A stretch of DNA of 64,000 nucleotides from the NCBI GenBank assembly GCA_903813345.2, contig CAIIXF020000809.1, positions 126,001 through 190,000 of the forward strand, written 5' to 3'. Below are positions 1 through 37,204 of this stretch, piece after piece. Within the stretch, counting starts at the first letter, position 1. Each line of letters starts with the position of its first letter. The notes under the pieces were generated by a model, which searched no databases, was not told the DNA's origin, and saw only the letters and a list, made by a program, of their open reading frames with translations. The position numbers were made by a program, and so were the translations under genes. The DNA is from Owenia fusiformis (Eukaryota > Annelida > Polychaeta > Sabellida > Oweniidae).

Positions 1-148
1 AACAAAAACAGATTGCTTTTCATGCAAAGAAGCTGTTTTATGACTACAATACTGAAAATACCTGGTATGTAGAATACACTTGGGGAAGATATAATAGAGA
101 AGTTTCAATTGTAGGTTAAAGGTTAACAAGGGGTAAAGGATCACTTAC

Positions 149-316
149 CAGGGTCACATGGCTCTGTAGGCTCAGGCAGCCCTTGTGTCTCACAGTAAAT
201 TCCTCCTGTACATGGCTGACAGAACTGTATACCATATGCATGGGTTTGGCCGTTGAATGTCACTACAGGACAGGGATTCTCTGTTGCAAATGTTGCGTTT
301 ACTTCACAGTAGTACC
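149..316 (-). CDS. Exon of cysteine-rich GYYC-repeat protein (copy 1)
   Basis: Open exon of 168 bp, bounded on the minus strand by a TTTCATAG acceptor and a GTAAGT donor. It is phase 1 on both sides, so it encodes 56 codons with the first glycine completed across the junction. The peptide starts GYYCEVNATF, ends PTEPCDP and carries six cysteines. The spacing resembles ephrin-receptor-like/GCC2-GCC3 and TNFR-like extracellular modules. Known proteins of this type are large secreted or membrane proteins; the ligand is unknown here. Only four of the seven copy 1 exons are both open and phase 1-1, and this is one of them, so the locus may be a pseudogene even though this exon is clean. The counterpart is 32810-32977. 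Confidence 0.7.
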
Positions 317-420
317 CTATGAAATAAAAGGAGGACTAAAGTAACTGTCTATAAAACTGTCATTCTTCTAATTTATAGTGATTCTGTAAAGAAATATCTA
401 TTATTTTCATTTCATATAAT

Positions 421-967
421 TAAGGAATAAATAATGATAGGCCATTCAATATGGTGAAATTCAGCACGAGTTGGACAGAATGTTGTACAAAGCACGAACC
501 GAAGGTGAGTGCATTTGTACTAACATTCTGTCCAACGAGTGCTGAATTTCACCATATTGAATGGCCTATCATTATTTATTCCGATTCAAACATAAAAATT
601 AGTAAAAGCCGTGTCTGTGGAACGGGCATGGAGGAAGAATACGCATGCTGTCAAGATTCTGAAGTCGGCCGGAAAATTTTAGAATTTGTTTGGGCTGTTC
701 TATTTTACTCCACGTTTTAGATTTTATACGGTGTATGCAAACATGGGAGTTAAATAGTAACAGTAGTTACGGAGGGAGTAAAAAAGAACAGCTATCCCCG
801 GACAGAGCCCCAGATGTGCAGCTGAGATGTGACGTCACTCAAAACAATGCAAATTGCAGATTGAATAGAGCATGATCGTGCATCTATGGAGAATTAGAGA
901 ACGTTCTATATTGGCTATGCTGCATTCTGATTGGTTGAGAAATTCGAATAGAGCACAGTCATGTTTG
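421..967. mobile_element. Hairpin-bearing non-autonomous element, AAT target duplication
   Basis: This block is present in copy 1 and absent from copy 2. Copy 2 reads through CATACAATGTCACATTT, whereas copy 1 has AAT, the insert, then AAT again before GTCACATTT. That indicates insertion with a 3-bp target-site duplication after the segmental duplication. The left end carries a very long near-perfect hairpin (424-582). No protein-coding capacity is recognised, so the family is unknown. Confidence 0.6.
424..582. repeat. Near-perfect hairpin, arms about 72 bp
   Basis: The left arm starts GGAATAAATAATGATAGG and is complemented by the segment ending CCTATCATTATTTATTCC. Arms of 61 bp have only two mismatches, and complementarity then continues through GTACAAA/TTTGTAC toward a short loop near 500-515. 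It lies at one end of the 421-967 insertion. Confidence 0.85.
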
Positions 968-1216
968 AATGTCACATTTAATGAGATGAAAGGGACAAAA
1001 ATATTTACATTGTAATTATACCTAAGCAAGCAATGGTTTGTTTTTGCTCATGTCCTATCAATGACTGAATCAGTGTATAACAAGGATGCCACTCAATCAC
1101 AACCACAATCACTGCATGTTCTTACTGACGATAATATTTGGTTAATTAAAACACAGAATGAAATCCTGAGCTGAGGGCTGCTGTAAAAAAGTCAGTCAGT
1201 CTACTTACTCGCTTAC

Positions 1217-1388
1217 TAACTCAGCCATGGGGCAATATGAAGTATTGTAGAGTATGATTGGTGCCATTGTAATATCACTGTATAAACCCTGTGGACAATC
1301 CTTGCAGTATGCCATGCCCAGTTTGTCCTGGTATGAGCCAGAGGGACATCAGATAGGAGAAGCGTCACTTCCAGTGGGGCAATAGTGG
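1217..1388 (-). pseudogene. Broken exon of cysteine-rich gene (copy 1)
   Basis: Translates as HYCPTGSD followed, after a TGA at 1349-1351, by a second cysteine module (CPSGSYQ...CKDCPQGLY). The expected acceptor before the GHYC codon reads AAGC rather than AGGC, and the only nearby donor (GTAAGC) leaves the wrong phase for the next exon. The same stop and border defects occur in copy 2 at 33484-33652, which is also 3 bp shorter. The exon was therefore lost before the duplication, or is skipped. Confidence 0.6.
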
Positions 1389-1574
1389 CTTAAACATAAC
1401 AAGTTAATAAATATATGAAATTATGAACATCACTCAAGTGGAACAACAGTGACCTTATACAAATAACAAGTCAAAATATATGTGCAGTAATCGAAAATCC
1501 ATTTGAAATCAGTTGAGAAATTGGATCATCATAAAAGTTTACAAAATTAATGTTTCCTCATAAGAGCCATTTAC

Positions 1575-1814
1575 CTTCCTTGCAGTTATACCCAGTAGAG
1601 GAATCATCATCTTGACCCCCAGGATAGTAATATACAGCAGAACAAAGGCCAGTTGGGGCATCATTCCCACTACCAGCACAACAAAAGCCCGCAGTGCAGA
1701 GTTCACAGTCTGAGACGTCATCATTGCCAGTGCTGTTGAGGAAGTAACCAGCCTGACAGAGTTGAGGAGCAACTGTACCATTTGGACAGAATTCTTCACG
1801 AGGACAAATGTCCC
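1575..1814 (-). CDS. Exon of cysteine-rich gene, 80 codons (copy 1)
   Basis: Open 240-bp exon, phase 1-1, with a TTATTTCAG acceptor and a GTAAAT donor. The correct frame gives GDICPREEFCPNGT..., LCQAGYFLNSTGNDD, CELCTAGFCC and a final YYYPGG...YNCKE. The longer overlapping ORF starting MYNLLFQ is a different frame and is not coding. Potential N-glycosylation sites (NGT, NST) fit an extracellular protein. Copy 2 holds the same exon at 33839-34078 without a break. Confidence 0.68.
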
Positions 1815-2761
1815 CTGAAATAATAAATTATACAAACTTGAGTAATACTGTTGAATTGCATGAAGGTTCTATAAATCATATTGTGCAGCAGATTGCTAGC
1901 AGATAGCAAGTGTAAAATAATAATAAAAGAAATTGTCAATACTAAAACAACTTCAATAATGATTTACTTATTGAAACATTATCATTAATTTGGGAGAACA
2001 CTGAAGTGGTGAAAAAGGTTATTTTACAGGTTGTCAAATGGCGTTGTGTCCCCCCCCCCATCCACAGCATAAAGTAGGAGAAGTACACATACATACTATA
2101 TACCTTTGGAAAGAGCATATAATTGTTGTTAAAGTGTGAAAAGATGAAAATGCATGACAGAAAATAAGACAAATTTTGAACTAATTTTTGAAAGTGAGTA
2201 TGATCACCTTGGGCAGCGGAAAATGGCTGTGACTAGCTGGACATGAGTTATAAAATCCATGGAGAAGAGCAATGTCTTTCTCAAGAGATCTCAATACTTT
2301 TTTGAGGTCCTTGTGCAGGGTGGCTTTGGAATATCTGTTCTCTGTAGCTTCAATAAGGTGTTCTGTTTTATCCATTAATATGGACCTCATATGATCTGCA
2401 GTATTTAAGGGAGTTGTTGCTTGTGTATATGTCAATGCCGAAAAAGTCTATGCAGGAATTCGTCAAAATCATTAAAAAGAGCACCAACCTAGTATACTTC
2501 AGCTGTGAAAAAATATGTGAAAAAATATGTAGCAATACCTGACCTTGGTCATCTGCTGTTTATTTTATCAAGCATTGAATGCTATTTCCAATAACCTACA
2601 GAATGTATAGGTACTTCTCCTAGATAGGTACTTCTCCTAGTTTATGCTGTGGAAGGGGGAGGGGGGGGCACAATGCCATTTGACAACCTGTATAACTGTC
2701 ATGCAATTGGTCTCACTAGTTATATTTTTCTGTGACATAAACGTTTTTGCTTTATTCATAC
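1815..2761. other. Intron-like interval with a MITE
   Basis: No exon was recognised. The interval is mostly occupied by the inverted-repeat element at 2025-2692. Copy 2 lacks 2012-2330. Confidence 0.5.
2025..2692. mobile_element. MITE-like element with terminal inverted repeats
   Basis: The left end TACAGGTTGTCAAATGGC is matched in inverse by GCCATTTGACAACCTGTA at the right end. Complementarity continues through a C-rich tract, CCACAGCATAAA and TAGGAGAAGTAC, giving arms of about 68 bp (2025-2094 and 2624-2692). The right arm also carries a direct TAGGTACTTCTCC duplication. There is no coding capacity. In copy 2 the left arm and adjoining sequence were deleted, leaving only the right arm near 34555-34624. 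Confidence 0.7.
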
Positions 2762-2984
2762 CAGTGGTACCATCATTACTGGGGTTAGTCATAGTAGCTG
2801 ATGATGTGCAGTAATATCCTCCGAAACACTCACCAGACATTACTCCTAAATAATCAGTAGCACAATGGATCCTTCAGGGCAGTATTCTCTGGTCACGCAG
2901 TTGCAGACCTACCAGTATAATAATAAACTGCTTTACATAGGCCAGTTGAAGTTGTCAGGCCTGTTTATTCACAGTACTGTCCAC
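2762..2984 (-). pseudogene. Decayed exon of cysteine-rich gene (copy 1)
   Basis: Splice borders survive (ATTCAG acceptor; GTATGA donor), but the exon is 223 bp, one base out of frame. It begins GQYCE, then has a TAA at 2965-2967 and a later TGA. Recognisable family pieces sit in all three frames: TGLCKAVYYYTG, TREYCPEGS, and CFGGYYCTSSATM near the donor. The identical lesions in copy 2 (34690-34912) predate the duplication. Skipping this exon keeps its phase 1 neighbours in frame. Confidence 0.65.
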
Positions 2985-3220
2985 CTGAATGACAATGGAG
3001 TAATATGATCACAGAAGCGCAAGACAGAAGAGGAAGAATGAGAAAATATCCAATTGAGATTACAATTTATATGATAATAATATTTGTATCACTGTTTCCT
3101 CCTCAAAATATCTCTACTGTCAATTTTATTATTTTTTAAACTGCACGTTCATAGTTTTTACAAGATGAGTTTTCCCAGACTCAATAAAATACATAATTTA
3201 ATAAAAGAAACAGTACCAAC

Positions 3221-3385
3221 CTGGACAATCTAAGCAGTCTTCAACTTTAGTACGATGAGATATGTTGTTGTATTTCCCAGCTACACATGGGTACTGGTTC
3301 CATGCCTCAGTGCCATCTGGACAGTAGTGTCCACTGAGACAATCATAGTTAGCGTAGTTCACAGCACCACTAGGGCAGTAGTAAC
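3221..3385 (-). CDS. Exon of cysteine-rich gene, 55 codons (copy 1)
   Basis: Open 165-bp exon, phase 1-1, after a TTTTACTGTAG acceptor and before a GTTGGT donor. It encodes GYYCPSGAVNYANYDC, GHYCPDGTEAW and a final CLDCPG: two ephrin-receptor-like half modules with regular cysteines. The copy 2 counterpart has lost two of these cysteines and one Asn codon, so this copy is the better preserved of the two. Confidence 0.72.
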
Positions 3386-3826
3386 CTACAGTAAAACAAA
3401 GCATCTGTTGAATGTTGAGAACCAATAGGGTGGAGTCTTCCAAACCCTAGCCATCCAAAGATAAGCTTCCAAAGACAAGTTGAACCACCGAGCCAATCAC
3501 CCAAAGACAAGGAACTCCTAGTCACTTAGAGATAAATAAATAACTCATGTAACTGTTGTTTAAAGCAACTGACTGATTGATACCATGTGGAAACTCCCAA
3601 TCGACTCCAGAATTACACAAATTGCCTGCAGCAAAATCACCTGTAACATGAGCACTCAGAAATAAGTCTTTAAGAGCATTTAAGATTTAATTCTCTTTTA
3701 AAATCAGTTTTTTGAAATGACTTAAAACACAAATGCTCAGGCCAAGTTTTAAAGCTGGAATGAATCACGGAGCTTCAATCTCTTCATATCACAGTGACCA
3801 GGTAAGATATGGTTCAATGAATTTAC
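3386..3826 (-). other. Intron with possible small exon remnant
   Basis: A good acceptor (CATGTTACAG, exon side at 3640) precedes a short phase 1 open stretch reading GDFAAGNLCNSGVDW, which resembles the family only loosely. The frame ends at a TGA without a convincing donor. It is conserved in copy 2, but so is the rest of the intron. It is noted as a weak candidate only. Confidence 0.25.
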
Positions 3827-4246
3827 CTGAAGGTGTTGGGGGGCAGAGGTAGCACTTCATATCCTGGGTGTAGTTCACATAGTTGTTGGTTTTGCTGGGG
3901 ATAGGACCCGGGCAAGTTCCCTCAGAGCAGTAATGTCCAACTGGGCAGACAGTCGCTCGGGCACCACTCCATATTGAGCCTATTGGACAATAGTATCCAG
4001 GATCACACCTTGGTTTTAAAAAACCCTCAGTCTCAAAGTTTCCAGGACATGGGAAACATTTTGTATCATTCTTTAGTCCAGTTACATTGCTGTATGTCCC
4101 AATTGGGCACTGGATTTGGTTTACTGTGCTTTCAGTGCAGTATTGACCCTCTGGGCAGATGATGAAGTCAGGGGTTGTAATGCTACTGGGGCAGTTATAC
4201 CCTGTGTCACATTCCCCACTTGGCAGTTGGTTGCCACAGTAATAGC
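3827..4246 (-). CDS. Large exon of cysteine-rich gene, 140 codons (copy 1)
   Basis: The longest intact exon of the gene: 420 bp, phase 1-1, TTTCTAG acceptor and GTAAAT donor. It encodes at least five cysteine modules in a row: GYYCGNQLPSGEC, GYNCP, GQYCTES, CPIGTYSNVTGL...CFPCPG, GYYCPIGS, GHYCSEGTCPG and CYLCPP. The repeat grammar C-P-x-G-x-Y matches ephrin-receptor-like/GCC2-GCC3 repeats. Several NxT sequons suggest a glycosylated secreted protein. Copy 2 (36203-36622) is also open, with only a handful of differences, so this is the best probe for whether the locus is expressed. Confidence 0.78.
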
Positions 4247-4647
4247 CTAGAAACAAAGGCATATTTCTGATATGTTGAAAACTGAAGGACAAGTCATTAA
4301 CATGCAAATGTCAATTACTGCCATTTGTTAAAGATTCCAAACATAAACTGCTGACTGCCACCACCAAAAAGTTAGAGACTATAACAATTTGTCACCAGTT
4401 CTGTTGGTGACATGAAAATGTATTTTGAAGACTACCAACTCGATTTTCGTTCAAAATACCCTTTTCATTCAAAATACACCTAGATATTTTCCTTAATTAT
4501 AACATGCAGTAAAAATGTCAAGTAAAACACCTCTGATATACAAATAGAACACTTTTTCTTGTGACTCATTTGGCTTAGAGCACAAGTGGAACACTTTATT
4601 TAGAGGTTCTTGAGGTGTTCCACTTATGTTTTACCAGTATAACCTAC

Positions 4648-4822
4648 CCTGCATTGAAGATCTTTGAATACATGTATGCGGTCTGGGCAGTCTGATCACA
4701 GTAATAGCCACGGGGACACTCTGTACAATTTGCCTCATTCTGGAGCCCTGTTTCATTGCCAAATGTTTCACTGGGACGGGGATACTCATTGGATAAGTAG
4801 GTGCCAGCAGGACAGTAATAAC
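4648..4822 (-). CDS. Exon of cysteine-rich gene with out-of-phase donor (copy 1)
   Basis: The open frame begins GYYCPAGTYLSNEYP after a TTATTTCAG acceptor and contains CTECPRGYYCDQTAQT. The only good donor, GTAGGT, leaves phase 2, whereas the next exon (3827-4246) needs phase 1, so normal splicing would shift the frame. The same arrangement is in copy 2 at 37030-37204. The frame reported as an ORF over this stretch is shifted and is not the coding frame. Either an unseen alternative junction is used or this is another old lesion. Confidence 0.55.
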
Positions 4823-6580
4823 CTGAAATAAACAGTAATTATGTGATAAACAGTCCTCCAAATTGACCATTTGAGTCAAAATAAATTTTATGCTTAACAA
4901 GACAAAAAGCAATGCTGTGGCTTAGCAAATCCCATCGAACACCTTTTTAAGTGCCACACAAAGTTATGAGTCATCAGTTCTCAAAATGAAGGCATGAATC
5001 ATCTGTCCATGGGCCACACTGACGAGATGTACTTGATGGTGGCTGATTAGGCTCTCTGCATCTTCATTGGCAAATGAGATTGCTGGGACTAAATTGTCAA
5101 AAATCTATCTAAATCAATAAAAAGATGGCTAGGATTGAAAGAGATCTGAAATATAAATGAGGGTTTATGTATTTCTTCAAGTTGTAAAAAACAGACATCT
5201 GTTTTTGTCTTCAGTGATGATGGAAGCAAAATTGACCTGCCATTTATGATTCAATATTCTTGTAATTTCCTTTATTCATAAAGATATTTGGAAATGTACA
5301 AGTCAAACATTATTTTAATGGCAGTTGTGATTTATCTTAGTTTAATTATCAGTATTTAAAAAAATTGAAATGAGAGTTAATTTAAAAGGAGAAACAGATC
5401 TACAGAAAAAATGTTTCAATTATACAACATTTTGGTCTTAAATCATTCCTTATTACATTTATTCCTTAATAATCCCCAATTTTTATGTGTTAATTTTTCT
5501 GTAATGATATCAACATTGATTTTTTGAGAATTTTTACATGTTTGCACTTTGAATCTTATTGAATCTTCATTTGATATAATTTTTTTATTAAGATATATTT
5601 ATTTCATTTCAAAATTTTACAATATATATCCTTTCAAACGCCTGAGGGCATAATAGAAGGAAATATTAGATAAGACAAATACATATTAATATAAATAAGG
5701 CGAAGGAGTTAATACTGATAGAATATCAAAAAGCATTTGGAACATAATATGTTTGAAGTGATAAGGAACTGATTTGGAGCTCCAATGTACATATTGCTTG
5801 CAATTTTGTCAACCCATAAACTGTCTTTAGATCTGTTCCTGCCTTTAATGGTAAGCATTATAATATGGATTGAACTGAGAGGATTATGTTGGACTGGTTT
5901 AATGTAAAAGTTGGATTGGGTCAGGGAAGGTTGTACTTGGTAGAGAGGTATAAAGCGTTAGACACAACAAGCTAGGTGAAGTGAGTATTTTAAACTCAGG
6001 AGATTCCACATTTTGTAGAAATCTAACCCAATCCAGCTTTTACATAAAACCAATCCAACCCAATACACTCAATCAAATCCATATTTTAATGCCCATCCCT
6101 TTAAATAAAGTACTCACCTTAGGAGAGATTTTGCTTTTTCTCATTCACTCTAATTTATTCTAGTTCATATACATATGTCTATACTGCTGATGTACCTTAA
6201 CTTTTACATTCTATTATTAGTAATGAATACATTTAACTGTTAGGCAATCTTAATTGTTAAGCAATCTTACTTAATGTGGCAACCATATCTAAGATCAACG
6301 TCTACTTTAGCTATACATATATATTCTGTGTTAAATACTTTTTTTTCATTTTTCTATGGTCATTTATTGTTTTCCTCCCTGCTGTGTATTATCATATTAA
6401 CTGGTCTGTCCTGATCAAATGATAATACTATTCTGGTGTTCTGCTTTCAAAGATGTTCGTTTTCTTTTAAATGATAATCTTCTGTTTACTGTTATTGTGT
6501 TCAATATATCTTGTTTTCTCAGGTATTGTTTTTCATTTTGCCATGGTCTCTTATAGAACTGTTTTCTAGTAGTATCTTTC
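4823..6580. other. Non-coding interval between exons and Helitron tail
   Basis: AT-rich, with no convincing gene. Bases 4850-5289 are present here but missing from copy 2. At 5468 the sequence CCTTAATAATCCCC is the empty target site of the foldback element present in copy 2. A short T-rich stretch before 6580 probably belongs to the Helitron 3' region, but no terminus could be fixed. Confidence 0.5.
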
Positions 6581-6730
6581 TGTGGTATGTTTGAAATAAT
6601 ATATTTTCTGCAGGAGACATTTACATATAAACTTTGTTCGAGTAAAGGTTACTGTAAGGATTTAATATTGTGTACCGTCAGTATTTATTATCTTCAATAT
6701 CAATGTTCACCTTGCACATGGTTATCTAAT

Positions 6731-6778
6731 AATTACTTAACATTTCTAATAATCACTTTGACCATTTCATGGTAGCTC
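6731..6778 (-). pseudogene. Duplicated C-terminal tail of the Helitron ORF
   Basis: Reads SYHEMVKVIIRNVK then a stop, the same residues that end the full ORF at 7004. The match also continues beyond the stop (VTVR/GTAAGGA-type sequence around 6640 versus 6905). This is a tandem duplicate of the element's last ~140 bp, separated from the real end by a 19-20-bp minisatellite. Copy 2 has the equivalent near 43838-43885. Confidence 0.7.
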
Positions 6779-6779
6779 A

Positions 6780-6892
6780 GAGTACAGTAAGGACTACAGA
6801 GTACAATAAGGACTAGAGTACAGTAAGGACTACAGAGTACAGTAAGGACTACAGAGTACAGCAAGGACTACAAGGGTATCGTAAAGACTAAA
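6780..6892. repeat. ~20-bp minisatellite near Helitron 3' end
   Basis: About six imperfect units of ACAGTAAGGACTACAGAGT, some shortened or changed (ACAATAAGGACTAG, ACAGCAAGGACTACA). The equivalent array in copy 2 (43888-43978) has about one or two units fewer. Confidence 0.8.
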
Positions 6893-7003
6893 CTTGGATT
6901 GGGTAAAAGTTACTGTAAGGACTTCACATTGTGTAGCATCAGTATTTTATTATCTTTTCTTTTTTGGAGTCAATGTCTATCTTCCAAATGGTTTATTTAC
7001 CAA

Positions 7004-10000
7004 TTACTTAACATTCCTAATAATTACTTTGATCATTTCATGATAGCTGTAATAGATAGGTAAAACGCATACATCTACATTGTGTAATGTTTGACTAGCA
7101 TAAACATGATCGATACATGTTCCTAATTCAGTCGTTGGTACAGCTGGGTCTGACAGTAATCTGTATCTTTGGCGTATCAAGAAATCATGAATAGGGTGCT
7201 TCTCTGTATCAATCAAATTTTCATTTAAATCACCAACAATAAGAACTTTTTTATACTTTTTGTGAACATGATGTAAAATGTTCTCCATTTCTAAAATGAA
7301 TTTGGTATTCACTATTTTCGGTGACTTATATAATGTTATCACTGCCATATCTTTAACAATGGTTAAAGCATTGTCCAACGGTGATATTATGCTAGATGTC
7401 TGCAAGTTTCCTAAACTATTCTTCTTATAAATGGCAATTCCACCTTTACGGCTTGCGTCAATTTCTGTTTTTCTATTCACTATATGTGGAGGATCAAATG
7501 TTTCAATCTCAAGAATATCATACACATTTTCATGTCTAAGCCATGTTTCTGTGAGACACATAATATCACATGAGGTCAAATCAGTGTTACACTTTACATC
7601 TTCTATATGACCTATCAAACCCTGTGTATTATGATAAATAATTGTCAAGTCATTTTCGGTTGCTATTTCTAAGTGAGGTAAATATTGAGATATATCTAAC
7701 TCTGTCATCTCTTCTAAAGCCTTTGCTGTTTTTTCGTCGCAATATATTTTCTTTGGGTCGTAATCAATTATATAAAGACCTTCAGCTGATGTTACCCTAC
7801 TGAAAGCAACATATGCTTGACCACCTGTAAACAAGTTTGCACAAGATATGGCAAGTCTTTCGCATGTTTTTCCCTGCAATTTATGTATAGTGCAGCCATA
7901 TGATAATATCAGTGGTAGTTGACGTCTCATAAATTTGCCATTGACTTCATCATTATATGGTTCAATACATATAGAACCAGGGTGAGCTTTAGACTTATTT
8001 TTATATCTGCTCTTTATACCTACTTTTGGATTATCAAATTTAACCCATACGGCCTTCGGCATATTGTCTGTATCATTTTCAAATTCAATAGCGGTAACAA
8101 CACCAAATGCACCATTAGCCAGTCCATCAGCAGTACATATATTTTTTATCAGAAGAACATGTGCACCAACGCAAATTTGTATTTCATGAGAAAGGGTATC
8201 ATCCCGATGATTTGGTGGTTTGTCAGTTTTTTTCCATTCTTGGCCTTTCAATTTGGTGTAATCAATTGCTTTTACATTATATAGTGTATTATTAGTTGAC
8301 TTTGCATAAGACAATATTCTCTTCCGATTATACTCATTCACTTGGACATGCTTCGAATATATCCTCATGACATCTTCAGGAATTGGTTTTTTCATTATTT
8401 CTCTAATGAATTCATCGTCTTCAGTTGATAATTTTTCTCCTTTTTTAAGAATTCTAATTCTGTTTAAAAATTCGGCATATTTGAGATCATCTTTTTGTCT
8501 CATAATTTCAGTCAGCTCTATTTTCTTGAATTTTCCCCAAGGATTATAATCTGGCTCATCAGAGGTCAATAGACTTTTCTGCATAACTGGGGGCAATTGA
8601 TAGAAATCTCCAAATGCTAATACTGAGGTGTTACCAAAGTCTGGATGGTTGCCAGGTTTAATTTGCTTAAGTCTTCCCCGTACTGTGTTAAAAAGTCTGA
8701 CACTAACCATAGAAATCTCATCAACTATTAGATTCTCTAGAGATTTTAGTCTCATTTTTAAGGGAGCTATATCTTTTTCTTCGAGTGGCTTATATTTTGA
8801 AGACATAAATCTTGAAGTGATTCTAAATGCCGAATGCAACGTATTACCATTAATTTGGAAGGCGCTTGTTCCTGTTGGACTTGTTAATAGTACACTCAAG
8901 TCATCTGGGTTCTTTAAAATATTTCGCAATAAATGTGTGGAAATATAATGGATGCACTTAATTAAATGTGTTTTACCTGTCCCTGCTTTTCCACAGACAT
9001 GAAGAAATAACGGTTCAACTTTTTTATGCCACGATAACTCTAAGCATCGTTTCCTAATTAAGTAAAACACTTGTCTTTGCTTTGCATTCATGGTTCTCAT
9101 TAACTTCATGGCTTCCTCTGTAGGTATTGTATCTGTCTGTAATTCTACAAGACAATTTACATTTCCTTTAATTTTTGTTTTAAGGTCAATATCAGGCATA
9201 TCGTTTTCATCAATTTCATCACAATTGGGTTTAACATATTCAGAAATACACTCCTGTCTTTCCAGTTCTTGCTCTGGTGCTAACTGAGCCCATGCATTCT
9301 CATATGTATCATCTTCATTTAATTGTTCTTGCGCAGCATCTAAATCATCGCCAGTAACATCATAAATACATTTATATTTTGACACAATTTCAGACACTTT
9401 CAAAAATATTTCTCCATGTTTTATTTTTCCACACTTGAAATAGCCTTCAAATGTTTCATATTGAGCAGGTCGCAATTCTTGATCACTTCTGTGTGGTATG
9501 AAGAGTTGGAGCATACTATGATAGTATTCATCAGGATTGGTGTCCTTCGAGAATTTTGGATATCTTATAATAGCTGGTGGACTTTTTGATCTCTTCTGAA
9601 TATATCCTAAGCCATTTCTCAGTTGTATCTTTTTTGATGTTTCTGTTTGATTTTCAAATACTTCATCATCATAATTATATGTTACAACTCTGTACATTGA
9701 TGCAAACTCTGCCAAACATAATTCATCAAATTCTAAATTACATGGCCTTGCAAAATATCTTTCAATGATACTTGTTGCCCATATTTTATCTTGTTCATTC
9801 TCTTTGTGTCTGCGGATTTGTGAAATTGGTAATGACATCTTTATTGGGTTGTTACCCACTGGCAGAAATACTGTTTGTCTTGAACATTCTTTAAGATGAA
9901 GATTGGTGGCTCTGTACACGGCTTCTTGAGCACTAACTTCTCTATGTTGCATATATTTGTATCCGATCATTTTCATGAGTTTTGAGGCAGATGCATTTTT

Positions 10001-13000
10001 CTCTTTAGCTTCTTGTTCAGCATCTATTAGATTTTGACTCATATCACGTTCTTGTTTTGAAATGTATGATACAATATACACTACACACGAAAATACATCA
10101 AGAACATATTGTATATCCATGTTAGCTTCCCATGCTTTCAGAAGGTCTGGATTGTAGTTATTTATCCACATTTCCTGAACATTTCTCCTCAAGAATATGG
10201 TTTTCTTTCTTTTACTAGTCAAAACTCTAATAACATTTTCATATTTCTCCATTGTTAATCCTGGATATGCTTTCTCAAAAATTTCAGTTAATGTCATTTT
10301 AGCATAATCTTCTGACAGAAAGAACTCCCAAAGAGACTGAATAATATCTTCAGCTACTTTTATTGGTATAATCTCTGTTGGTTCATCAGAAATGTTGTCA
10401 TCAACAATAAAGGTTCTGTCAGATGGAAGTTTGGGGAAGTGAAATCTACAACTTGCTTTTTTATTTTTCTTACAACTTTTTGAATGGTTTTTGCTGTGTG
10501 TTTGAACTTCATTGACTAATCTGTTCAAATCTGGATCAATTGTTTCATCTGGCAGTTCACAAGAGATGTATCTATCAATGAATTCCTCAACATCTGATTC
10601 TTTTGATTTGCCATAAATGGGAGCATCTTCAATCCAAATTAAACAGTGTACATGGGGGGATCCTCTCATTTGAAACTCAACACGGTAAAACATATCTTTT
10701 ATTCTACCAATTGGTTCCGCAGGTGATTTCAAAACATCATTCATAAACCTTCTCCATCTGTTATCAAACATTCTTGCAACAGTAACTGGATTATCTCTGA
10801 TGAATTCACATCGTTCAGTTTTTGTTATATCTTCTGGCAAACGTGGGTCATTATTTTGTTTCAGGATTGTTTCAATAATCTCATTCCATTTCAAATCTGC
10901 TGATGAGAATGAACAAAACCATGTCGGTGGTCCAAGTTGCCGTATCATTGCAAATAAATCTTTTTGTACATGTTGCCAGTATGGTGGTGTGCCACGGATT
11001 GGTTGCAGATAGTGATGACCAACATTTTTCCGGCAAAGTCTTTCACTTTTATCTTTACTTATGATATCATCGGCTGTTACTACATCACCACTTGTTGACT
11101 TTTCTGTTATTTTCCTGAGGCTGATACTAACTTTAGAAATTATATTCTGAAGTTCAGTCAAATATTGGGCATAAAATATATATTGAGTATTTTTAGCAAA
11201 TCTTAAGTCTGCAGATAACAACCTATTGCCAAAATATTTGGTTGCTGACAATTTTTTTTCTCTCTTTTCAGCATTTGTATTTTTTCCATTTGGAAATAAA
11301 GTTGGGAATGAAAGTGCTTCATTGTTCTTTTCTTGGAGAATACGTATTGGCTTGTTGCTTTCTCCTGGTGCTATGCAGTATATCTTGTCAAGATGTGTGT
11401 CAATAATGTGCTGAGCAATATCATCAGGTTGCATACAAGTATCAAATACTATATTCTGTATATCACTACTAGTGTCTTTATCCAGGATTTCTGTATTGGT
11501 TTCTTGTTGATCTTGATCACAATCTGTCTCAGTAAGTTTTAAGTCACATTTACTTCCATATATTTTTTTATCTTCCTCACTTAAAATTTCAGGAGGTATT
11601 GAATTCACAAAATCATCTAATATTTCAATATCTTTGTATAGCTCATTGTTTTGTTTAAGGTACTCGAGTGCTTTTTTTACTTTAGAAATATTCACCAAGT
11701 TATATAAGTAATGACCCTTATATTCAAGTTTGCGTTTCAGTTTCACTGTGAAAAGTTGTTCATCACTAATTGGTCTTGGTAAGACTTTAATCGTTTCTTC
11801 GGCATTACTTGATACAGATATAACAGGACCATTCATACCAGATTGTCCTCCTCTTGGCAATTGTACTATTTTCATAAAAGGTAAACGTAACGAGACTAAA
11901 TGTTGTTCAAGGACATTCAAATCTTTCAGTTCTGGTGGAATCGATGGTACAGACATATTGTTGCTAAAAGACATCATTGGAATTTTACCTTTTTTAAAGT
12001 GAACATGACAGTTCTGACATATCCATAATTTGCTCTTAGGAGAATTGCAAAGTGTACAATTTTGGTTGCATAATATTTCTTTCTTATGTAAATATATTTT
12101 TGAAACACTCTTTTGTTCATCCTGACGAGATAATTTTGAATAAGAATTTTCTTTGTAGAGAAGCACTTGATTTTTAAAAAGCAATCTGTGACAAACGACA
12201 CAAATATAGTTTAGTCCATCATGTATTGTTTGTTTGAAGTCATGAATTACCTTTTCAATGTTTTCTCGTTGTGTCTTGTTAGTAATGTATTTTTGTTTAC
12301 CTTGATTGATCGTACTTTTCTTGAAGGCTTCATTAGTGTTATACTTTTTTTGGCTTTCTTGTCTCACTTTCTGTTGAAAATCTAGATCAGATTTATATTT
12401 TTCTTTGCTTTGTTGTTTCACTTTCTGTTGAAAATCTACATCAGATTTATACTTTGCTTTGCTTTGCTGTCTCGCTTTCTGTTGAAAATCTAGATCAGAT
12501 TCATACTTTTCTTTGCTTTGTTGTCTCGCTTTCTGTTGAAAATCTGGATCAGATTCATACTTTTCTTTGCTTTGTTGTCTCACTTTATGTTGAAATTGTA
12601 GATCTGATTCATATTTTCTTGTGCTCTGCTTTATCTTTCTCTGCTTGAAAAGTTCATCAGTTCCATATCTTTCCTTGCTTTGTTGCTTACTTTGGTCGAC
12701 CTTACTGTGTCTGAAAACCTTATCAGTAGAGTACTTGTGTCTTTCATATATCTTCTTCTTGTATTTCTTCTGATCTGACCTTGACATCTTTCTCAACTTT
12801 GCCTTGTCACTTTCTGAGAAAATATCTTCATTTTTACAATCAGCAGTAATTGGGCTACTACAACAGGTCTCATCTTTGGTACATTTAGTTGAATCATGTC
12901 TTGTTTTATCACAATTTCCAGCCATTACCTGACCATATGTTTCCTTTAATTTACATAAACGAACATATGACTGTTTGATTTGCAGACTGGTTGAACTAAC

Positions 13001-15871
13001 AAGATTCTGTTTGCTATCAAATACAGGTTGAGTGTCAGTATCTTCTGTGAAGTTTAATCTCCTTTTGCAAGATTTTCTTTCAATTGACTTCGAAGGATTA
13101 CAAGATGGTTCCCTACTTGTCTTTTTAACAGTCAAGTTTAGTGCTTCATTTTTGGTAGGATCATTTTTACATTTTATTTTGCTCGATATCGTTTGCCTCT
13201 GGATTTTAGCCTCGGGTACTGGGTCTTGTATCTGATTAGCTCTTGCACATTCTTCAAATGTTATACCATCGACAGAAAACCCATGCTTGACATTGGTTCT
13301 GTTTATCAAACTATCAGTTAATGACTCTGCAGTGTTCCACAAAAACATTGATATTTTTTCCAATGAATTTGACATATGAACAATTGCATTTCCAAAAACA
13401 TCAATTCGTCCTTGATCATTCCTACTGTGAGGATCAAATGAGTAATACATGTCTTTACTCTTCATTACACAAGTTGTTGTATTCAGGAATGTAACAAGGC
13501 ATGAGTTGTAATCTGTGAGCCCTTTTTCAATAGCTTCATGTAGAGTTAATCCATCATCGTCTTCTTCAGTATAATTCCAGTACTCTAAGTAGCCCTGTTG
13601 TTGTCTTGATTTGTATGTATAGTTTTTGTTGTTAAAGCTTAAGATTTTTGGAATATCAAATATTTCCAAATAACCTGTTGGAGTTGGATTTTGAGATATG
13701 ATACTATTGTATAATATGTTGCCTCGGACTAAAACATCAGTAATGAATTCTGCATTAATTTCACGGTGACTTTCATTTTGAAGCATCAGTAAAAATGACA
13801 AAGAGTTAGCATAACATTGTTTTCCTTGACCTATGCCTTCAAACATTAGATGATTTTGAGACATATTTCCTTCTATAACTTGATCAAATATCTGTATTGC
13901 TGATGCATTGTTCTTTGCAGGATTTGTATTTGTATTTGCCGCTATCACATCTGTTACCACGTCATAATGACATTGGCTAGAATGATCTAGGTACATACAT
14001 CTGTTAACAAATGTTTTTCCAAATACTGTCCATCTATTTGTGTTTTCAAAAGTAAGTATCTGGGTTTGGAATAAATGGCAAGCTGCGGCAATTTCAATAT
14101 CAGTTCCCCATACAGATGATCTATTCATATTTTGGGATTTTATATGATTTTCCAATTCTGTTGCGGTTATTCCTCTTGTTTTACAAATGTATTTCTTACA
14201 GCTTTGGTCATTTCTATGAGACACTATACTCTGTCTAATAGCAGTGTGGTCATTTTCATTGTTTGTTATACAATATGCAATTGCTCTAAAAAGACAGTTT
14301 CCATCACCTCTGATATGTTTTAAGGATTCATATTTTGGCTTCATAAAGGCAATTTCAACATTGTCATATACAGGATCATTGCTTTTTGGCGTATACTTGA
14401 GATGATGGATGTTGCATAAATGAACTTTCTCTTGGTTTTGCAAAGGGTTAAAATTCCCAATAGGCTCACTGTAGGTTTCTTTCAAAACAGTTACATCATC
14501 AGGACTTTCCTTTGATTTATCCTTAGAATTATCTTTTGGGTTGTAACCTCCAGTTTGGGAAACTTTGTATTTTGTTCCAGTTTGTAAATCTTTCGAAGAC
14601 ACATTTTCATTTAACAGTTTGTCATCATTGTCAGCTTCTAAGATTTCAGTCTTTTTCACTTCATATTTATGGTTCATGGAAGACAGTATTTCATTGTTTT
14701 TGCTATGACTATGAATCGTTACTGGTGGAACACGTAAACATCCTTCAGCAAAAATATCTTGCATTTGTTCTACAATTTCTACAAAGTATGGATTTTCACT
14801 GTCTGGCACATTTTTAGTTTCTGGTTTGTTTTTAGTTGTATCTGATTTGTAACTAAGATATTTGGATCTTTTCAATTCTTTCCTGTTTGAACAGTGTTCA
14901 ATATTCAGCTTGAACAGTGTTTCAGTGTTATCAATGTTTAAGATTTTGAGATCATTATTTTCAATTGGTGGTACTCTTACAGTGTTGTCAGACAAAAACT
15001 GTTCTAGATCATGGTGTGGCAATACATGTTTCTCTGGTTGTGAAGTTCTGAAAGTACTATCTGGGACATGCTTTTGTTGTTTTGAAGTTGAGTTGCTTTT
15101 CAATCGTCCAAGTTTACGCCTCGATAGTTTCTGTGTTTTTATAAGAATAGGCTGTAATGTTTCATTGTTTTTTAAATGTCGTTCCATTTTCTTTCTTCTT
15201 GCTTTCATTTTGATAACTTCAGATCTTTCTTGTCTCCTTATTTTGTTTCTTAAGTACTTTTCTGATTTCAACAGAGATCTAAGAATATCATTGTTATCAG
15301 TAAGAAGTGCGTTCACATCATGGATAATTTTGAGAGATTTTCCAAGAGTATCAATGCAGTTTGCTATTAAAATATCTTTTGGTTGTGTGACAGTTCCAAC
15401 CTCTGCTGACACATTGGCAAATTTGGTAAGTTTTCTGAGTTTCTTCTTCTCAGATTTCTTTATGGTATTCTGTATTAACAGTGTGGCCAACTCAGATATT
15501 AATGAATCTTCCATATCTTCTGCTAACACCTTGTGATGGTTTGTATTGTTCTCAGTAATATTAGAAGTTGTACGCGATATTGTATCAATGTTTTTATACA
15601 TATATTCAGTTGAACATGAGAATGCGACTTCCGAAAGTATGGTCTTATTGAAGCACAATGGTACTGGTATTTCTTGCTTTCCATATGGTATTTTAGGTAA
15701 ATTAGGCATTTCAGTTTGTATTTCAGTTTGTACTTCAGCTTGTACTTTAGGCACAGTAAGCACTTCAGTTTGTATTTCAGGTACAGTAAGCATTTCAGTT
15801 TCTATTTCTGGTACAGTAAGTGCTACAGTTTCTATTTCAGGATCGGTAAGCCCTTCAGTTTCTATTTCAGG
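7004..15871 (-). CDS. Helitron Rep-helicase polyprotein: OTU, C76-like, HUH Rep, PIF1, EEP (copy 1, 5' partial)
   Basis: Transposase of a rolling-circle transposon, expected to nick and unwind element DNA in the nucleus. Residues are counted from the Met at 15793. OTU protease ~480-620 has D497-G-N-C500 and H609. A second cysteine-protease-like domain ~640-830 has Q-C660 and D787-P-H789. Basic KYxSD repeats span ~1005-1175. A DUF6570-like region (~1195-1410) has CxxC pairs, then PELKDLNVLEQHLVSLRLPF. The Helitron N domain starts near 1490. The Rep has HVH at 1714-1716 and Y1906/Y1910. The PIF1 helicase has GKAGTGKTH (K2274), VDE (D2358), FGDFYQLPPV and AFSRV. The EEP endonuclease ~2710-2929 has HNTQGL, TETWL, GDLNEN and IDHVY. 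There is no internal stop. The Met at 15793 is not the natural start: the frame stays open, with the same 10-residue repeats, up to the gap. Confidence 0.95.
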   Translation of the reverse strand, partial: PEIETEGLTDPEIETVALTVPEIETEMLTVPEIQTEVLTVPKVQAEVQTEIQTEMPNLPKIPYGKQEIPVPLCFNKTILSEVAFSCSTEYMYKNIDTISRTTSNITENNTNHHKVLAEDMEDSLISELATLLIQNTIKKSEKKKLRKLTKFANVSAEVGTVTQPKDILIANCIDTLGKSLKIIHDVNALLTDNNDILRSLLKSEKYLRNKIRRQERSEVIKMKARRKKMERHLKNNETLQPILIKTQKLSRRKLGRLKSNSTSKQQKHVPDSTFRTSQPEKHVLPHHDLEQFLSDNTVRVPPIENNDLKILNIDNTETLFKLNIEHCSNRKELKRSKYLSYKSDTTKNKPETKNVPDSENPYFVEIVEQMQDIFAEGCLRVPPVTIHSHSKNNEILSSMNHKYEVKKTEILEADNDDKLLNENVSSKDLQTGTKYKVSQTGGYNPKDNSKDKSKESPDDVTVLKETYSEPIGNFNPLQNQEKVHLCNIHHLKYTPKSNDPVYDNVEIAFMKPKYESLKHIRGDGNCLFRAIAYCITNNENDHTAIRQSIVSHRNDQSCKKYICKTRGITATELENHIKSQNMNRSSVWGTDIEIAAACHLFQTQILTFENTNRWTVFGKTFVNRCMYLDHSSQCHYDVVTDVIAANTNTNPAKNNASAIQIFDQVIEGNMSQNHLMFEGIGQGKQCYANSLSFLLMLQNESHREINAEFITDVLVRGNILYNSIISQNPTPTGYLEIFDIPKILSFNNKNYTYKSRQQQGYLEYWNYTEEDDDGLTLHEAIEKGLTDYNSCLVTFLNTTTCVMKSKDMYYSFDPHSRNDQGRIDVFGNAIVHMSNSLEKISMFLWNTAESLTDSLINRTNVKHGFSVDGITFEECARANQIQDPVPEAKIQRQTISSKIKCKNDPTKNEALNLTVKKTSREPSCNPSKSIERKSCKRRLNFTEDTDTQPVFDSKQNLVSSTSLQIKQSYVRLCKLKETYGQVMAGNCDKTRHDSTKCTKDETCCSSPITADCKNEDIFSESDKAKLRKMSRSDQKKYKKKIYERHKYSTDKVFRHSKVDQSKQQSKERYGTDELFKQRKIKQSTRKYESDLQFQHKVRQQSKEKYESDPDFQQKARQQSKEKYESDLDFQQKARQQSKAKYKSDVDFQQKVKQQSKEKYKSDLDFQQKVRQESQKKYNTNEAFKKSTINQGKQKYITNKTQRENIEKVIHDFKQTIHDGLNYICVVCHRLLFKNQVLLYKENSYSKLSRQDEQKSVSKIYLHKKEILCNQNCTLCNSPKSKLWICQNCHVHFKKGKIPMMSFSNNMSVPSIPPELKDLNVLEQHLVSLRLPFMKIVQLPRGGQSGMNGPVISVSSNAEETIKVLPRPISDEQLFTVKLKRKLEYKGHYLYNLVNISKVKKALEYLKQNNELYKDIEILDDFVNSIPPEILSEEDKKIYGSKCDLKLTETDCDQDQQETNTEILDKDTSSDIQNIVFDTCMQPDDIAQHIIDTHLDKIYCIAPGESNKPIRILQEKNNEALSFPTLFPNGKNTNAEKREKKLSATKYFGNRLLSADLRFAKNTQYIFYAQYLTELQNIISKVSISLRKITEKSTSGDVVTADDIISKDKSERLCRKNVGHHYLQPIRGTPPYWQHVQKDLFAMIRQLGPPTWFCSFSSADLKWNEIIETILKQNNDPRLPEDITKTERCEFIRDNPVTVARMFDNRWRRFMNDVLKSPAEPIGRIKDMFYRVEFQMRGSPHVHCLIWIEDAPIYGKSKESDVEEFIDRYISCELPDETIDPDLNRLVNEVQTHSKNHSKSCKKNKKASCRFHFPKLPSDRTFIVDDNISDEPTEIIPIKVAEDIIQSLWEFFLSEDYAKMTLTEIFEKAYPGLTMEKYENVIRVLTSKRKKTIFLRRNVQEMWINNYNPDLLKAWEANMDIQYVLDVFSCVVYIVSYISKQERDMSQNLIDAEQEAKEKNASASKLMKMIGYKYMQHREVSAQEAVYRATNLHLKECSRQTVFLPVGNNPIKMSLPISQIRRHKENEQDKIWATSIIERYFARPCNLEFDELCLAEFASMYRVVTYNYDDEVFENQTETSKKIQLRNGLGYIQKRSKSPPAIIRYPKFSKDTNPDEYYHSMLQLFIPHRSDQELRPAQYETFEGYFKCGKIKHGEIFLKVSEIVSKYKCIYDVTGDDLDAAQEQLNEDDTYENAWAQLAPEQELERQECISEYVKPNCDEIDENDMPDIDLKTKIKGNVNCLVELQTDTIPTEEAMKLMRTMNAKQRQVFYLIRKRCLELSWHKKVEPLFLHVCGKAGTGKTHLIKCIHYISTHLLRNILKNPDDLSVLLTSPTGTSAFQINGNTLHSAFRITSRFMSSKYKPLEEKDIAPLKMRLKSLENLIVDEISMVSVRLFNTVRGRLKQIKPGNHPDFGNTSVLAFGDFYQLPPVMQKSLLTSDEPDYNPWGKFKKIELTEIMRQKDDLKYAEFLNRIRILKKGEKLSTEDDEFIREIMKKPIPEDVMRIYSKHVQVNEYNRKRILSYAKSTNNTLYNVKAIDYTKLKGQEWKKTDKPPNHRDDTLSHEIQICVGAHVLLIKNICTADGLANGAFGVVTAIEFENDTDNMPKAVWVKFDNPKVGIKSRYKNKSKAHPGSICIEPYNDEVNGKFMRRQLPLILSYGCTIHKLQGKTCERLAISCANLFTGGQAYVAFSRVTSAEGLYIIDYDPKKIYCDEKTAKALEEMTELDISQYLPHLEIATENDLTIIYHNTQGLIGHIEDVKCNTDLTSCDIMCLTETWLRHENVYDILEIETFDPPHIVNRKTEIDASRKGGIAIYKKNSLGNLQTSSIISPLDNALTIVKDMAVITLYKSPKIVNTKFILEMENILHHVHKKYKKVLIVGDLNENLIDTEKHPIHDFLIRQRYRLLSDPAVPTTELGTCIDHVYASQTLHNVDVCVLPIYYSYHEMIKVIIRNVK
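12361..12625 (-). repeat. Coding 54-bp tandem repeat (KYxSD units)
   Basis: Five close 18-residue units of the form KYESDLDFQQKxRQQSKE, flanked by more diverged ones (KYSTDKVF, RYGTDELF, KYNTNEAF). They form a Lys/Gln-rich, probably helical linker between the protease domains and the zinc/Rep part. Copy 2 has four close units, so the array changes length by whole units without breaking the frame. Confidence 0.88.
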
Positions 15872-15872
15872 T
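15720..15872 (-). repeat. Coding 30-bp tandem repeat at the Helitron N terminus
   Basis: Consecutive 10-residue units: PEIETEG, LTDPEIETVA, LTVPEIETEM, LTVPEIQTEV, LTVPKVQAEV, then degraded QTEIQTEMP. The array enters the N gap without ending, so the gap is probably an unresolved longer stretch. Copy 2 has fewer, more irregular units (LTVPRIERIETVV). Confidence 0.85.
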
Positions 15873-16372
15873 NNNNNNNNNNNNNNNNNNNNNNNNNNNN
15901 NNNNNNNNNNNNNNNNNNNNNNNNNNNNNNNNNNNNNNNNNNNNNNNNNNNNNNNNNNNNNNNNNNNNNNNNNNNNNNNNNNNNNNNNNNNNNNNNNNNN
16001 NNNNNNNNNNNNNNNNNNNNNNNNNNNNNNNNNNNNNNNNNNNNNNNNNNNNNNNNNNNNNNNNNNNNNNNNNNNNNNNNNNNNNNNNNNNNNNNNNNNN
16101 NNNNNNNNNNNNNNNNNNNNNNNNNNNNNNNNNNNNNNNNNNNNNNNNNNNNNNNNNNNNNNNNNNNNNNNNNNNNNNNNNNNNNNNNNNNNNNNNNNNN
16201 NNNNNNNNNNNNNNNNNNNNNNNNNNNNNNNNNNNNNNNNNNNNNNNNNNNNNNNNNNNNNNNNNNNNNNNNNNNNNNNNNNNNNNNNNNNNNNNNNNNN
16301 NNNNNNNNNNNNNNNNNNNNNNNNNNNNNNNNNNNNNNNNNNNNNNNNNNNNNNNNNNNNNNNNNNNNNNNN
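15873..16372. other. Assembly gap (500 N)
   Basis: Exactly 500 unknown bases, a typical placeholder length. It conceals the Helitron 1 5' end and the upper breakpoint of the segmental duplication. Confidence 0.99.
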
Positions 16373-32581: not shown

Positions 32582-32809
32582 CTGTATTGTAAAAAATACA
32601 TGTTTACAATTCAAATTATCCATTTATCTTTAATATCCTCTCTACTTAATAAAGAAGAACAAAAACAGATTGCTTTTCATGCAAAAAGCTGTTTTATGAC
32701 TATAATACTGAAAATACCTGGTATGTAGAATAGAATACACTTGGGGAAGATATAATAGAGAAGTTTCAATTGTAGGTTAAAGGTTAACAAGGGGTAAAGG
32801 ATCACTTAC

Positions 32810-32977
32810 CAGGGTAACATGGCTCTGTAGGCTCAGGCAGCCCTTGTGTCTCACAGTAAATTCCTCCTGTACATGGCTGACAGAACTGTATACCATATGC
32901 ATGGGTTTGGCGGTTGAATGTCCCTACAGGACAGGGATTCTCTGTTGCAAATGTTGCGTTTACTTCACAGTAGTACC
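32810..32977 (-). CDS. Exon of cysteine-rich gene, 56 codons (copy 2)
   Basis: Counterpart of 149-316: the same 168 bp, phase 1-1, open. The visible change is CDP to CYP just before the donor, plus a few silent or conservative changes. Here the downstream partner exon (32348-32581) is inside the window and the junction is in phase (CYP/GYFC), which supports the gene model for both copies. Confidence 0.7.
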
Positions 32978-33483
32978 CTATGAAATAAAAGGAGGACTAA
33001 AGTAACTGTCTATACAAGGCATTCACATGCAAAATGTCAACACCTGCCATTTGTTACAGACACCAACTGCCAAACACCAACTGCCAAATGATAAACACCA
33101 ACCACTGAACACTGTCCACAAAAAAGTTTGAGACCATAACAATATGTCACCACTTGTGGTGGTGACATAAAAACTGTTATTCTTCTAATTTATAGTGATT
33201 CTGTAAAGAAATCTCTATTATTTTCATTTCATACAATGTCACATTTAATGAGATGAGAAGGACAAAAATATTTACATTGTAATTATACCTAAGCAATCAA
33301 TGGTTTGTTTTTGCTCATGTCCTATCAATGACTGAATCAGTGGACAACAAAGATGCCACTCAATCACAACCACAATCACTGCATGTTCTTACTGACGATA
33401 ATATTTGGTTAATTAAAACACAGAATGAAATCCTGAGCTGAGGGCTGCTGTAAAAAAGTCAGTCAGTCTACTTACTCGCTTAC

Positions 33484-33652
33484 TAACTCAGCCATGGGGC
33501 AATATGAAGTATTGTAGAGTATGATTGGTGCCATTGTAATATCACTGTATAAACCCTGTGGACAATCCTTGCAGTATGCCATGCCCAGTTTGTCCTGGTA
33601 TGAGCCAGAGGGACATCAGATAGGAGCGTCACTTCCAGTGGGGCAATAGTGG
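33484..33652 (-). pseudogene. Broken exon of cysteine-rich gene (copy 2)
   Basis: Same TGA, same defective AAGC acceptor and same out-of-phase donor as 1217-1388, with a further in-frame 3-bp loss (one Ser codon). The shared lesions date inactivation before the duplication. Confidence 0.6.
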
Positions 33653-33838
33653 CTTAAACATAACAAGTTAATAAATATATGAAATTATGAACATCACTCA
33701 AGTGGAATAAGAGTGACCTTATACAAATAACAAGTCAAAATATATGTGCAGTAAATGAAAATCCATTTGAAATCAGTTGAGAAATTGGATCATCATAAAA
33801 GTTTACAAAATTAATGTTTCCTCATAAGAGCCATTTAC

Positions 33839-34078
33839 CTTCCTTGCAGTTATACCCAGTAGAGGAATCATCATCTTGACCCCCAGGATAGTAATATACA
33901 GCAGAACAAAGGCCAGTTGGGGCATCATTCCCACTACCAGCACAACAAAAGTCCGCAGTGCAGAGTTCACAGTCTGAGACGTCATCATTGCCAGTGCTGT
34001 TGAGGTAGTAACCAGCCTGACAGAGTTGAGGAGCAGCTGTACCATTTGGACAGAATTCTTCACGAGGACAAATGTCCC
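33839..34078 (-). CDS. Exon of cysteine-rich gene, 80 codons (copy 2)
   Basis: Open counterpart of 1575-1814, with identical borders and length. Differences include a Ser-for-Cys-type or Arg-adjacent change in the CTAGF/CTADF region and Phe-to-Tyr before LNSTGND. There is no lesion. Confidence 0.66.
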
Positions 34079-34689
34079 CTGAAATAATAAATTATACAAA
34101 CTTATGTAATACTGTTAAATTGCATGAAGGTTCTATAAATCATATTGTGCAGCAGGTACTAGCAGATTGCAAGTGTAAAATAATAATAAAAGAAATTGTC
34201 AATAATAAAACAACTTCAATAATGATTTACTTATTGAAACATTATCATTAATTTGGGAGAACACTGAAGTGGTGAATATCTGTTCTCTGTAGCTTAAATA
34301 AGGTGTTCTGTTTTATCCATTAATATGGACCTCATATGATCTGCAGTATTTAAGGGAGTTGTTGCTTGTGTATATGTCAATGCCGAAAAAGTCCATGCAG
34401 GAATTCGTCAAAATCATTAAAAAGAGCACCATACTAGTATACTTCAGTTGTGAAAAAATATGTAGCAATACCTGACCTTGGTCATATGCTGTTTATTTTA
34501 TCAAGCATTGAATGCTATTTCCAATAACATACAGAATGTATAGGTACTTCTCCTAGATAGGTACTTCTCCTAGTTTATGCTGTGGAAGGGGGAGGGGGGG
34601 GCACAACGCCATTTGACAACCTGTATAACTGTCATGCAATTGGTCTCACTAGTTATATTTTTCTGTGACATAAACATTTTTGCTTTAAC

Positions 34690-34912
34690 CAGTGGTACCA
34701 TCATTACTGGGGTTAGGCATAGTAGCTGATGATGTGCAGTAATATCCTCCGAAACACTCACCAGACATTACTCCTAAATAATCAGTAGCGCAATGGATCC
34801 TTCAGGGCAGTATTCTCTGGTCACGCAGTTGCAGACCTACCAGTATAATAATAAGCTGCTTTACATAGACCAGTTGAAGTTGTCAGGCCTGTTTATTCAC
34901 AGTACTGTCCAC
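34690..34912 (-). pseudogene. Decayed exon of cysteine-rich gene (copy 2)
   Basis: Counterpart of 2762-2984, with the same length, stops and frameshift. In addition, a 5-bp loss changes the donor from GTATGA to GTTAAA. The remnant right arm of the 2025-2692 MITE lies just beside it. Confidence 0.62.
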
Positions 34913-34998
34913 CTGAATGAAAATGGAGTAATGTGATCACAGAAACGCAAGACAGAAGAGGAAGAATGAGAAAATATCCAATTGAGATTACAATTTAT

Positions 34999-35465
34999 GG
35001 TATGAGTACCGTAATCCAACACCAAATTCGAAAATTCATAACAATACTTTGCACATATGTCGTTCGGGACCACTATAAAATGGTTACCCCCCATAGTGTT
35101 ATATATCAAAATGTACCTTTCATATAGGGGTTCGATTGATCTACATCAAATTATAGGGAGTCAGGTTACTTTTTGAGATATCAGCGTCCATTTATCTTAA
35201 CTCGCGTTTGCCACCACTTCCTCAATTCTGATATGATGGGCAAACGCGTAGTAAACATGCTCACGTCGGAACTATTTTTGACCTAAATCGCTATCATCGT
35301 AATTCAAATGAAAGTTGAACTCCTCCTCTTTATTTTGATACCAAATAGTGGCATACTAGGTACCCTAGAAGCCAACTATGGCGTCATTTTGAACAATACC
35401 ACAGGTTTTTAAATGGACTATACAGGAGTCATACCTTTTGGCGGATGGATTAGGAACCTCATACC
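34999..35465. mobile_element. 467-bp MITE with TTAT target duplication
   Basis: Present only in copy 2. The ends are GGTATGAGtaCCgTAATCC and, in reverse, GGTATGAGGTTCCTAATCC. Flanking TTAT at 34995-34998 and 35466-35469 corresponds to a single TTAT in copy 1 (near 3068). The interior has no coding frame. A 4-bp TTAT duplication is unusual, and the family is not assigned. Confidence 0.85.
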
Positions 35466-35619
35466 TTATATGATAATAATATTTGTATCACTGTTTCCTC
35501 CTCAAAATATCTCTACTGTCAATTTTATTATTTTTTAAACTGCACGTTCATAGTTTTTACAAGATGAGTTTTCCCAGACTCAATAAAATACATAATTTAA
35601 TAAAAGAAACAGTACCAAC

Positions 35620-35781
35620 CTGGACAATCTAAGAAGTCTTCAACTTTAGTACGATGAGATATGTTGTATTTCCCAGCTACACATGGGTACTGGTTCCATG
35701 CCTCAGTGCCATCTGGACAGTAGTGTCCGCTGAGACGATCATAGTTAGCGTAGTTCACATCACCACTAGGGCAGTAGTAAC
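35620..35781 (-). CDS. Exon of cysteine-rich gene, degraded (copy 2)
   Basis: Counterpart of 3221-3385, still open but 3 bp shorter (one Asn lost). Two conserved cysteines are replaced: NYDC becomes NYDR and VEDC becomes VEDF. Loss of paired cysteines in an otherwise open exon indicates relaxed constraint in this copy. Confidence 0.6.
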
Positions 35782-37029: not shown

Positions 37030-37204
37030 CCTGCATTGAAGATCTTTGAATACATGTATGCGGTCTGGGCAGTCTGATCACAGTAATAGCCATGGGGACA
37101 CTCTGTACAATTTGCCTCATTCTGGAGCCCTGTTTCATTGCCAAATGTTTCACTGGGACGGGGATACTCATTGGATAAGCGTGTGCCGGCAGGACAGTAA
37201 TAAC
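37030..37204 (-). CDS. Exon of cysteine-rich gene with out-of-phase donor (copy 2)
   Basis: Counterpart of 4648-4822: open, same acceptor, and the same GTAGGT donor leaving phase 2. Changes include TYLS to TRLS and R to M before AITV-equivalent codons. The sequence that follows upstream in copy 1 (4850-5289) is missing here. Confidence 0.52.

Follow-up and report, generated by a model that had tools for sequence, protein, structure and literature searches.

Results

Organization of the polyprotein locus

The window analysed in this study, a stretch of 64,000 nucleotides from Owenia fusiformis, harbors two copies of a long ORF that probably encodes a Helentron polyprotein. Copy 1 (7004-15793, minus strand) encodes 2929 aa and contains its terminal stop only. 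Upstream of it a further 26 codons can be read, as the frame remains open to 15872, where it meets a 500-base N gap (15873-16372) that hides the 5' part of this copy. The original prediction had placed the end of the feature at 15871, because the frame of copy 1 stays open to the edge of the gap. The second copy (44088-53156, minus strand) encodes 3022 aa, carries the same six domains and agrees with copy 1 at 2755 of the 2966 columns that could be aligned (93% identity). In copy 2, 74 residues precede the aligned start, some or all of which are covered by the 26 additional upstream codons of copy 1 together with the gap. All polyprotein features described below are given for copy 1 and lie on the minus strand.

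From the N- to the C-terminus, the domain order is OTU, a second cysteine protease, a DUF6570/zinc region, Helitron_like_N, PIF1 and EEP. Six Pfam domains scored above the curated cut-offs in each of the two copies: the OTU, Helitron_like_N, PIF1, Exo_endo_phos and DUF6570 profiles, for which a search had been proposed, and PF04843, which identified the second protease. The single frame combining an OTU, a second Cys...DPH domain, a zinc region, Rep, PIF1 and EEP, as read from the sequence by the original prediction, was thus borne out by Pfam and by motifs, zinc binding being the inferred part. The motifs searched for, which had been picked by eye from the sequence, were retained in both copies. 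A scan against NCBIfam returned 0 families. Scans of viral contigs for relatives gave 5 and 8 pattern matches, 0 of which were confirmed, using single-sequence patterns whose reach is limited to close relatives.

The middle part of the polyprotein includes DUF6570 (11615-11992, residues 1268-1393; PF20209, 1.1e-23), preceded by cysteine pairs (12008-12202) detected by motif search as CxxC at residues 1198, 1246 and 1259. These pairs may bind zinc. Between the second protease and the cysteine pairs, the ORF contains a 54-bp tandem repeat (12341-12693; 18-aa unit, 6.6 copies), and the copy number of this array is 6.6 in one ORF and 5.6 in the other. Tandem repeats with 54-bp and 30-bp units were observed in the polyprotein frame at 12341-12693, 49425-49723 and 15732-15872.

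Two cysteine protease domains

The OTU cysteine protease domain (13919-14338) spans residues about 486-625, with the match to PF02338 at residues 495-592 (2.2e-8; 35.1 bits, cut-off 23.3). Both the OTU profile and the active-site signature of the family, DGxC with the catalytic His, were found, in the form of the motifs GDGNC (C500) and CHYD (H609). When residues 470-640 were compared with solved structures by phmmer, the top match was 7jms (2.7e-6), followed by weaker matches to viral L-protein OTUs and to OTUD3, OTUD1 and OTUD5; in all, 20 distinct sequences had an E of 0.1 or lower. The single alignment shown, that with 7jms, has the columns of C500 in DGNC and of H609 in register.

The second module (13412-13831, residues 655-794) matches the Herpes_teg_N profile PF04843 (1.1e-7) with 32.1 bits against a Pfam cut-off of 25. 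We take this family to be Peptidase C76 of MEROPS. Next to the profile match, the Cys and D-x-H active site of the family was found in the motifs KQCYAN (C660) and FDPH (D787, H789). The module is a predicted member of the herpesvirus large-tegument deubiquitinase family of the type named VTD by Erven et al. 2022 (PMC9741609), according to whom most non-viral VTDs sit in Helitrons of the Helentron subclass. Among solved structures, residues 627-841 gave 4 matches, led by 8add (E 1.4e-5) and 8adb (6.6e-4), the remaining two being weak (0.076 and 0.68). Both leading entries are solved VTD proteins, and 8ADD is a VTD of the zebrafish Helitron DrT1, labelled DrT1-VTD2 in the structure section of the publication but DrT1-VTD1 under data availability (PMC9741609). 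C660 aligns with a Cys of 8add, and FDPH aligns with its FDSH. The triad published for DrT1-VTD2 consists of C322, D451 and H453, and its alanine mutants are termed catalytically inactive (PMC9741609). Counting along the printed 8add chain, the aligned Cys is C322 and the residues F, P, A and L fall on 398, 405, 406 and 407; in the same count, Asp and His are off by one residue relative to the published numbering. As read from this alignment, the ubiquitin contacts F398, P405, A406 and L407 of the zebrafish VTD are replaced by Q, N, Y and T, and E377 of 8add stands opposite D713.

An unrelated linker that matches the profile by chance and is no protease would be a very improbable explanation of this module. 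AlphaFold returned no confident fold for it (mean pLDDT 32.5), which might be taken to favor a linker; however, this low value is expected because the input alignment consisted of two near-identical rows, and the model is uninformative on the fold. PF04843, on the other hand, exceeds its curated cut-off in both copies, and the two leading entries among the 4 matches, 8add and 8adb, are solved VTDs, with Cys and D-x-H aligned. The protease-like domain that had been suspected at residues 640-830 is real.

Rep, helicase and endonuclease modules

The HUH Rep nuclease is represented by Helitron_like_N (10637-11224, residues 1524-1719; PF14214, 2.5e-32), with the motif HVH at residue 1714 and YIVSYISK at 1906, outside the Helitron_like_N match. 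The PIF1 helicase (8456-9091, residues 2235-2446; PF05970, 3e-22) carries GTGKT at 2271. The C-terminal Exo_endo_phos or AP-type (EEP) endonuclease (7055-7591, residues 2735-2913; PF03372, 2.3e-9) contains GDLNEN at 2854 and DHVYAS at 2895, and a phmmer search of residues 2709-2929 against solved structures at E 0.01 gave 0 matches. We presume that the Rep, PIF1 and EEP motifs of this ORF are catalytic. Rep (HUH) and a PIF1-type helicase thus lie within one ORF, as indicated by PF14214, PF05970 and the motifs, and the AP-type endonuclease follows C-terminally to Rep/Helicase, near the end of the 2929 residues. Helentrons are defined by an AP endonuclease fused at the C-terminus of Rep/Helicase (Thomas et al. 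2014, PMC4067079).

Duplication of the locus and its flank

DNA blocks over most of 1-15836 are repeated in order at 32658-52908, flank included. Two independent insertions were considered as an origin of the two copies and rejected, because the flank was duplicated along with the ORF: blocks from 1-6517 reappear in the same order at 32658-43434. This arrangement would fit either a segmental duplication or a haplotype left uncollapsed next to the assembly gap. Over eight in-order blocks of the flank, 99 mismatches were counted in 5248 alignment columns, gaps included (1.9%). Between 6499-15836 and 43610-52908, 291 of 9254 columns differ (3.1%), and these differences cluster towards the N-terminus and in the repeat-linker region. 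There, as many as 26 of 300 bases differ, compared with about 1.9% in the non-coding flank and 1-4 of 300 in the VTD stretch. A mosaic history or relaxed constraint may lie behind a divergence of the N-terminal and linker parts that exceeds that of non-coding flank. The longest identical run between the copies is 321 bp (13619-13939) and covers the OTU-VTD junction and the first half of the VTD. In 1000 shuffles the mean was 194 and the maximum 389; the run lies within this range and is therefore not strong evidence of gene conversion.

Several other features were observed in the window. The flank of copy 2 contains an insertion of ~4.8 kb (37414-42257) that is missing from copy 1 (site 5466-5468). 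Its inverted ends start TAGCGCAGTCAGATGTCC, the triplet TTA is duplicated, and it contains long inverted repeats (37430-38228 and 41434-42230, 88%); it looks like a DNA transposon, and one frame within it was scanned against Pfam and gave no match. Immediately upstream of the copy 2 ORF, a reverse transcriptase fragment lies on the plus strand (53167-54051; RVT_1, 1.4e-14, profile positions 88-203 of 205), which looks like a 5'-truncated LINE. Cys-rich frames of the GYYCxx type (3792-4310 and 36168-36686, minus strand) are duplicated with the locus, and Ephrin_rec_like reached 15 bits in the 3792-4310 frame, under its cut-off of 23.1. Of 53 further frames of the window, 10 were scanned against Pfam, and among these the RT frame alone scored above a cut-off. 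Satellite-like arrays with 218-bp and 156-bp units occupy 60427-61550 and 62397-63911. About 95 bases into the copy 2 ORF, a splice-acceptor-like stretch, TTTTTTGCAG, is located at 53052-53061 (minus strand) and is followed by a G+C-richer segment. The true start of copy 2 may lie in an upstream exon.

Selection between copies

dN/dS was calculated for copy 1 versus copy 2 by the Nei-Gojobori method and amounted to 0.353 overall. The N-terminal 485 residues (0.689) and the linker 1421-1520 (0.751) gave the highest values, the DUF6570 region (0.406), residues 846-1185 (0.328) and the OTU (0.318) gave intermediate ones, and values were lowest for PIF1 (0.163), Rep (residues 1521-1930; 0.127) and residues 1931-2230 (0.093). 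Rep and PIF1 look constrained between the copies. The VTD interval holds 4 nonsynonymous and 0 synonymous differences, which leaves dN/dS undefined, and the EEP holds 4 nonsynonymous and 2 synonymous differences (0.547). Taken alone, VTD and EEP give no sign of purifying selection, on counts too small for a verdict either way.

Low dN/dS from Rep through PIF1 (0.09-0.16) and the duplication of flanking DNA together with the ORF would both fit a locus that is a domesticated host gene of Helentron origin and not a transposon copy, and domesticated VTDs are described by Erven et al. (PMC9741609). Nevertheless, we consider domestication improbable. The non-transposon VTD genes in the published account are without recognisable transposon context (PMC9741609), whereas RepHel and EEP are kept here. 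Furthermore, the N-terminal part has a dN/dS of 0.69, and no intron/exon structure is established for the locus, the splice-acceptor-like stretch being the only hint of one.

Element ends

Helentron termini are described as having subterminal inverted repeats, a 3' palindrome and insertion into T-rich sequence without target duplication (PMC4067079). Between the flanks of copy 2, the longest inverted match measured 13 bp; 60 shuffles gave 12.3 on average and 15 at most. For the 3' flank, hairpins as good as the best one observed arose in 34 of 100 dinucleotide shuffles for copy 1 and in 35 of 100 for copy 2. Neither search revealed an element end. The 5' side is occupied by the gap in copy 1 and by the RT fragment in copy 2.

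Discussion

The ORF described in this study is most probably the principal one of a Helentron, a rolling-circle transposon with an AP endonuclease, of the OTU+VTD type known from earlier work; the element is putatively autonomous. From the domains, the motifs and the constraint on Rep and PIF1, we give this reading a probability of about 0.92. Going by the respective families, the HUH Rep would nick and join single-stranded transposon ends, strand unwinding would fall to the PIF1 helicase, and the EEP nuclease at the C-terminus might help in nicking the ends or the target. Endonuclease nicking in flanking T sequence was proposed by Thomas et al. 2014 (PMC4067079). The OTU and VTD proteases could strip ubiquitin from proteins of the element or the host, possibly from K48 and K63 chains by analogy with zebrafish VTDs, and such deubiquitination may shield the transposition machinery from proteasomal loss. 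That deubiquitination protects proteins needed for transposition was suggested by Erven et al. (PMC9741609). Ubiquitin cleavage was demonstrated for three zebrafish Helitron VTDs, and the VTD of DrT2 reacts with a ubiquitin probe and favours K48 and K63 chains, being less active than the DrT1 enzymes; for OTU domains of transposons, ubiquitin cleavage was still unassayed as of that publication (PMC9741609). One might go further and speculate that both proteases are active with different chain preferences and act jointly on the proteins of the element as a two-enzyme ubiquitin shield, and that the altered contacts let this VTD recognise ubiquitin differently from the zebrafish enzyme, but we regard this as unlikely.

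The original prediction had regarded the fusion of two proteases as not a standard description. This does not hold, and novelty of the two-protease content is rejected: OTU, VTD, RepHel and AP endonuclease were published together in 2022, with 121 VTD-Helitrons that also carry an OTU, and Helitrons with recognisable VTDs bear a C-terminal AP-type endonuclease (PMC9741609). The architecture is hence already catalogued as far as domain content is concerned, the published domain order lying outside this comparison. The locus adds two open copies to the OTU+VTD Helentron type and leaves the view of what Helentrons encode unchanged.

With the Helentrons of Thomas et al. 2014 (PMC4067079) the element shares Rep/Helicase and the C-terminal AP endonuclease, and OTU proteases are known there as well; in contrast, a tegument-like protease is absent from the passages on those elements, and their terminal features were not found here. 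The VTD of zebrafish DrT1 (8ADD) is the nearest solved relative of residues 627-841 and shares the aligned Cys and D-x-H, although the four published ubiquitin-contact residues differ in the alignment as read here. DrT1 itself differs in possessing two VTDs and no OTU (PMC9741609). In domain content by published description, with sequence, domain order and tandem repeats outside the comparison, the element resembles zebrafish DrT2, an AP-endonuclease (Helentron) Helitron with one active VTD and one OTU (PMC9741609).
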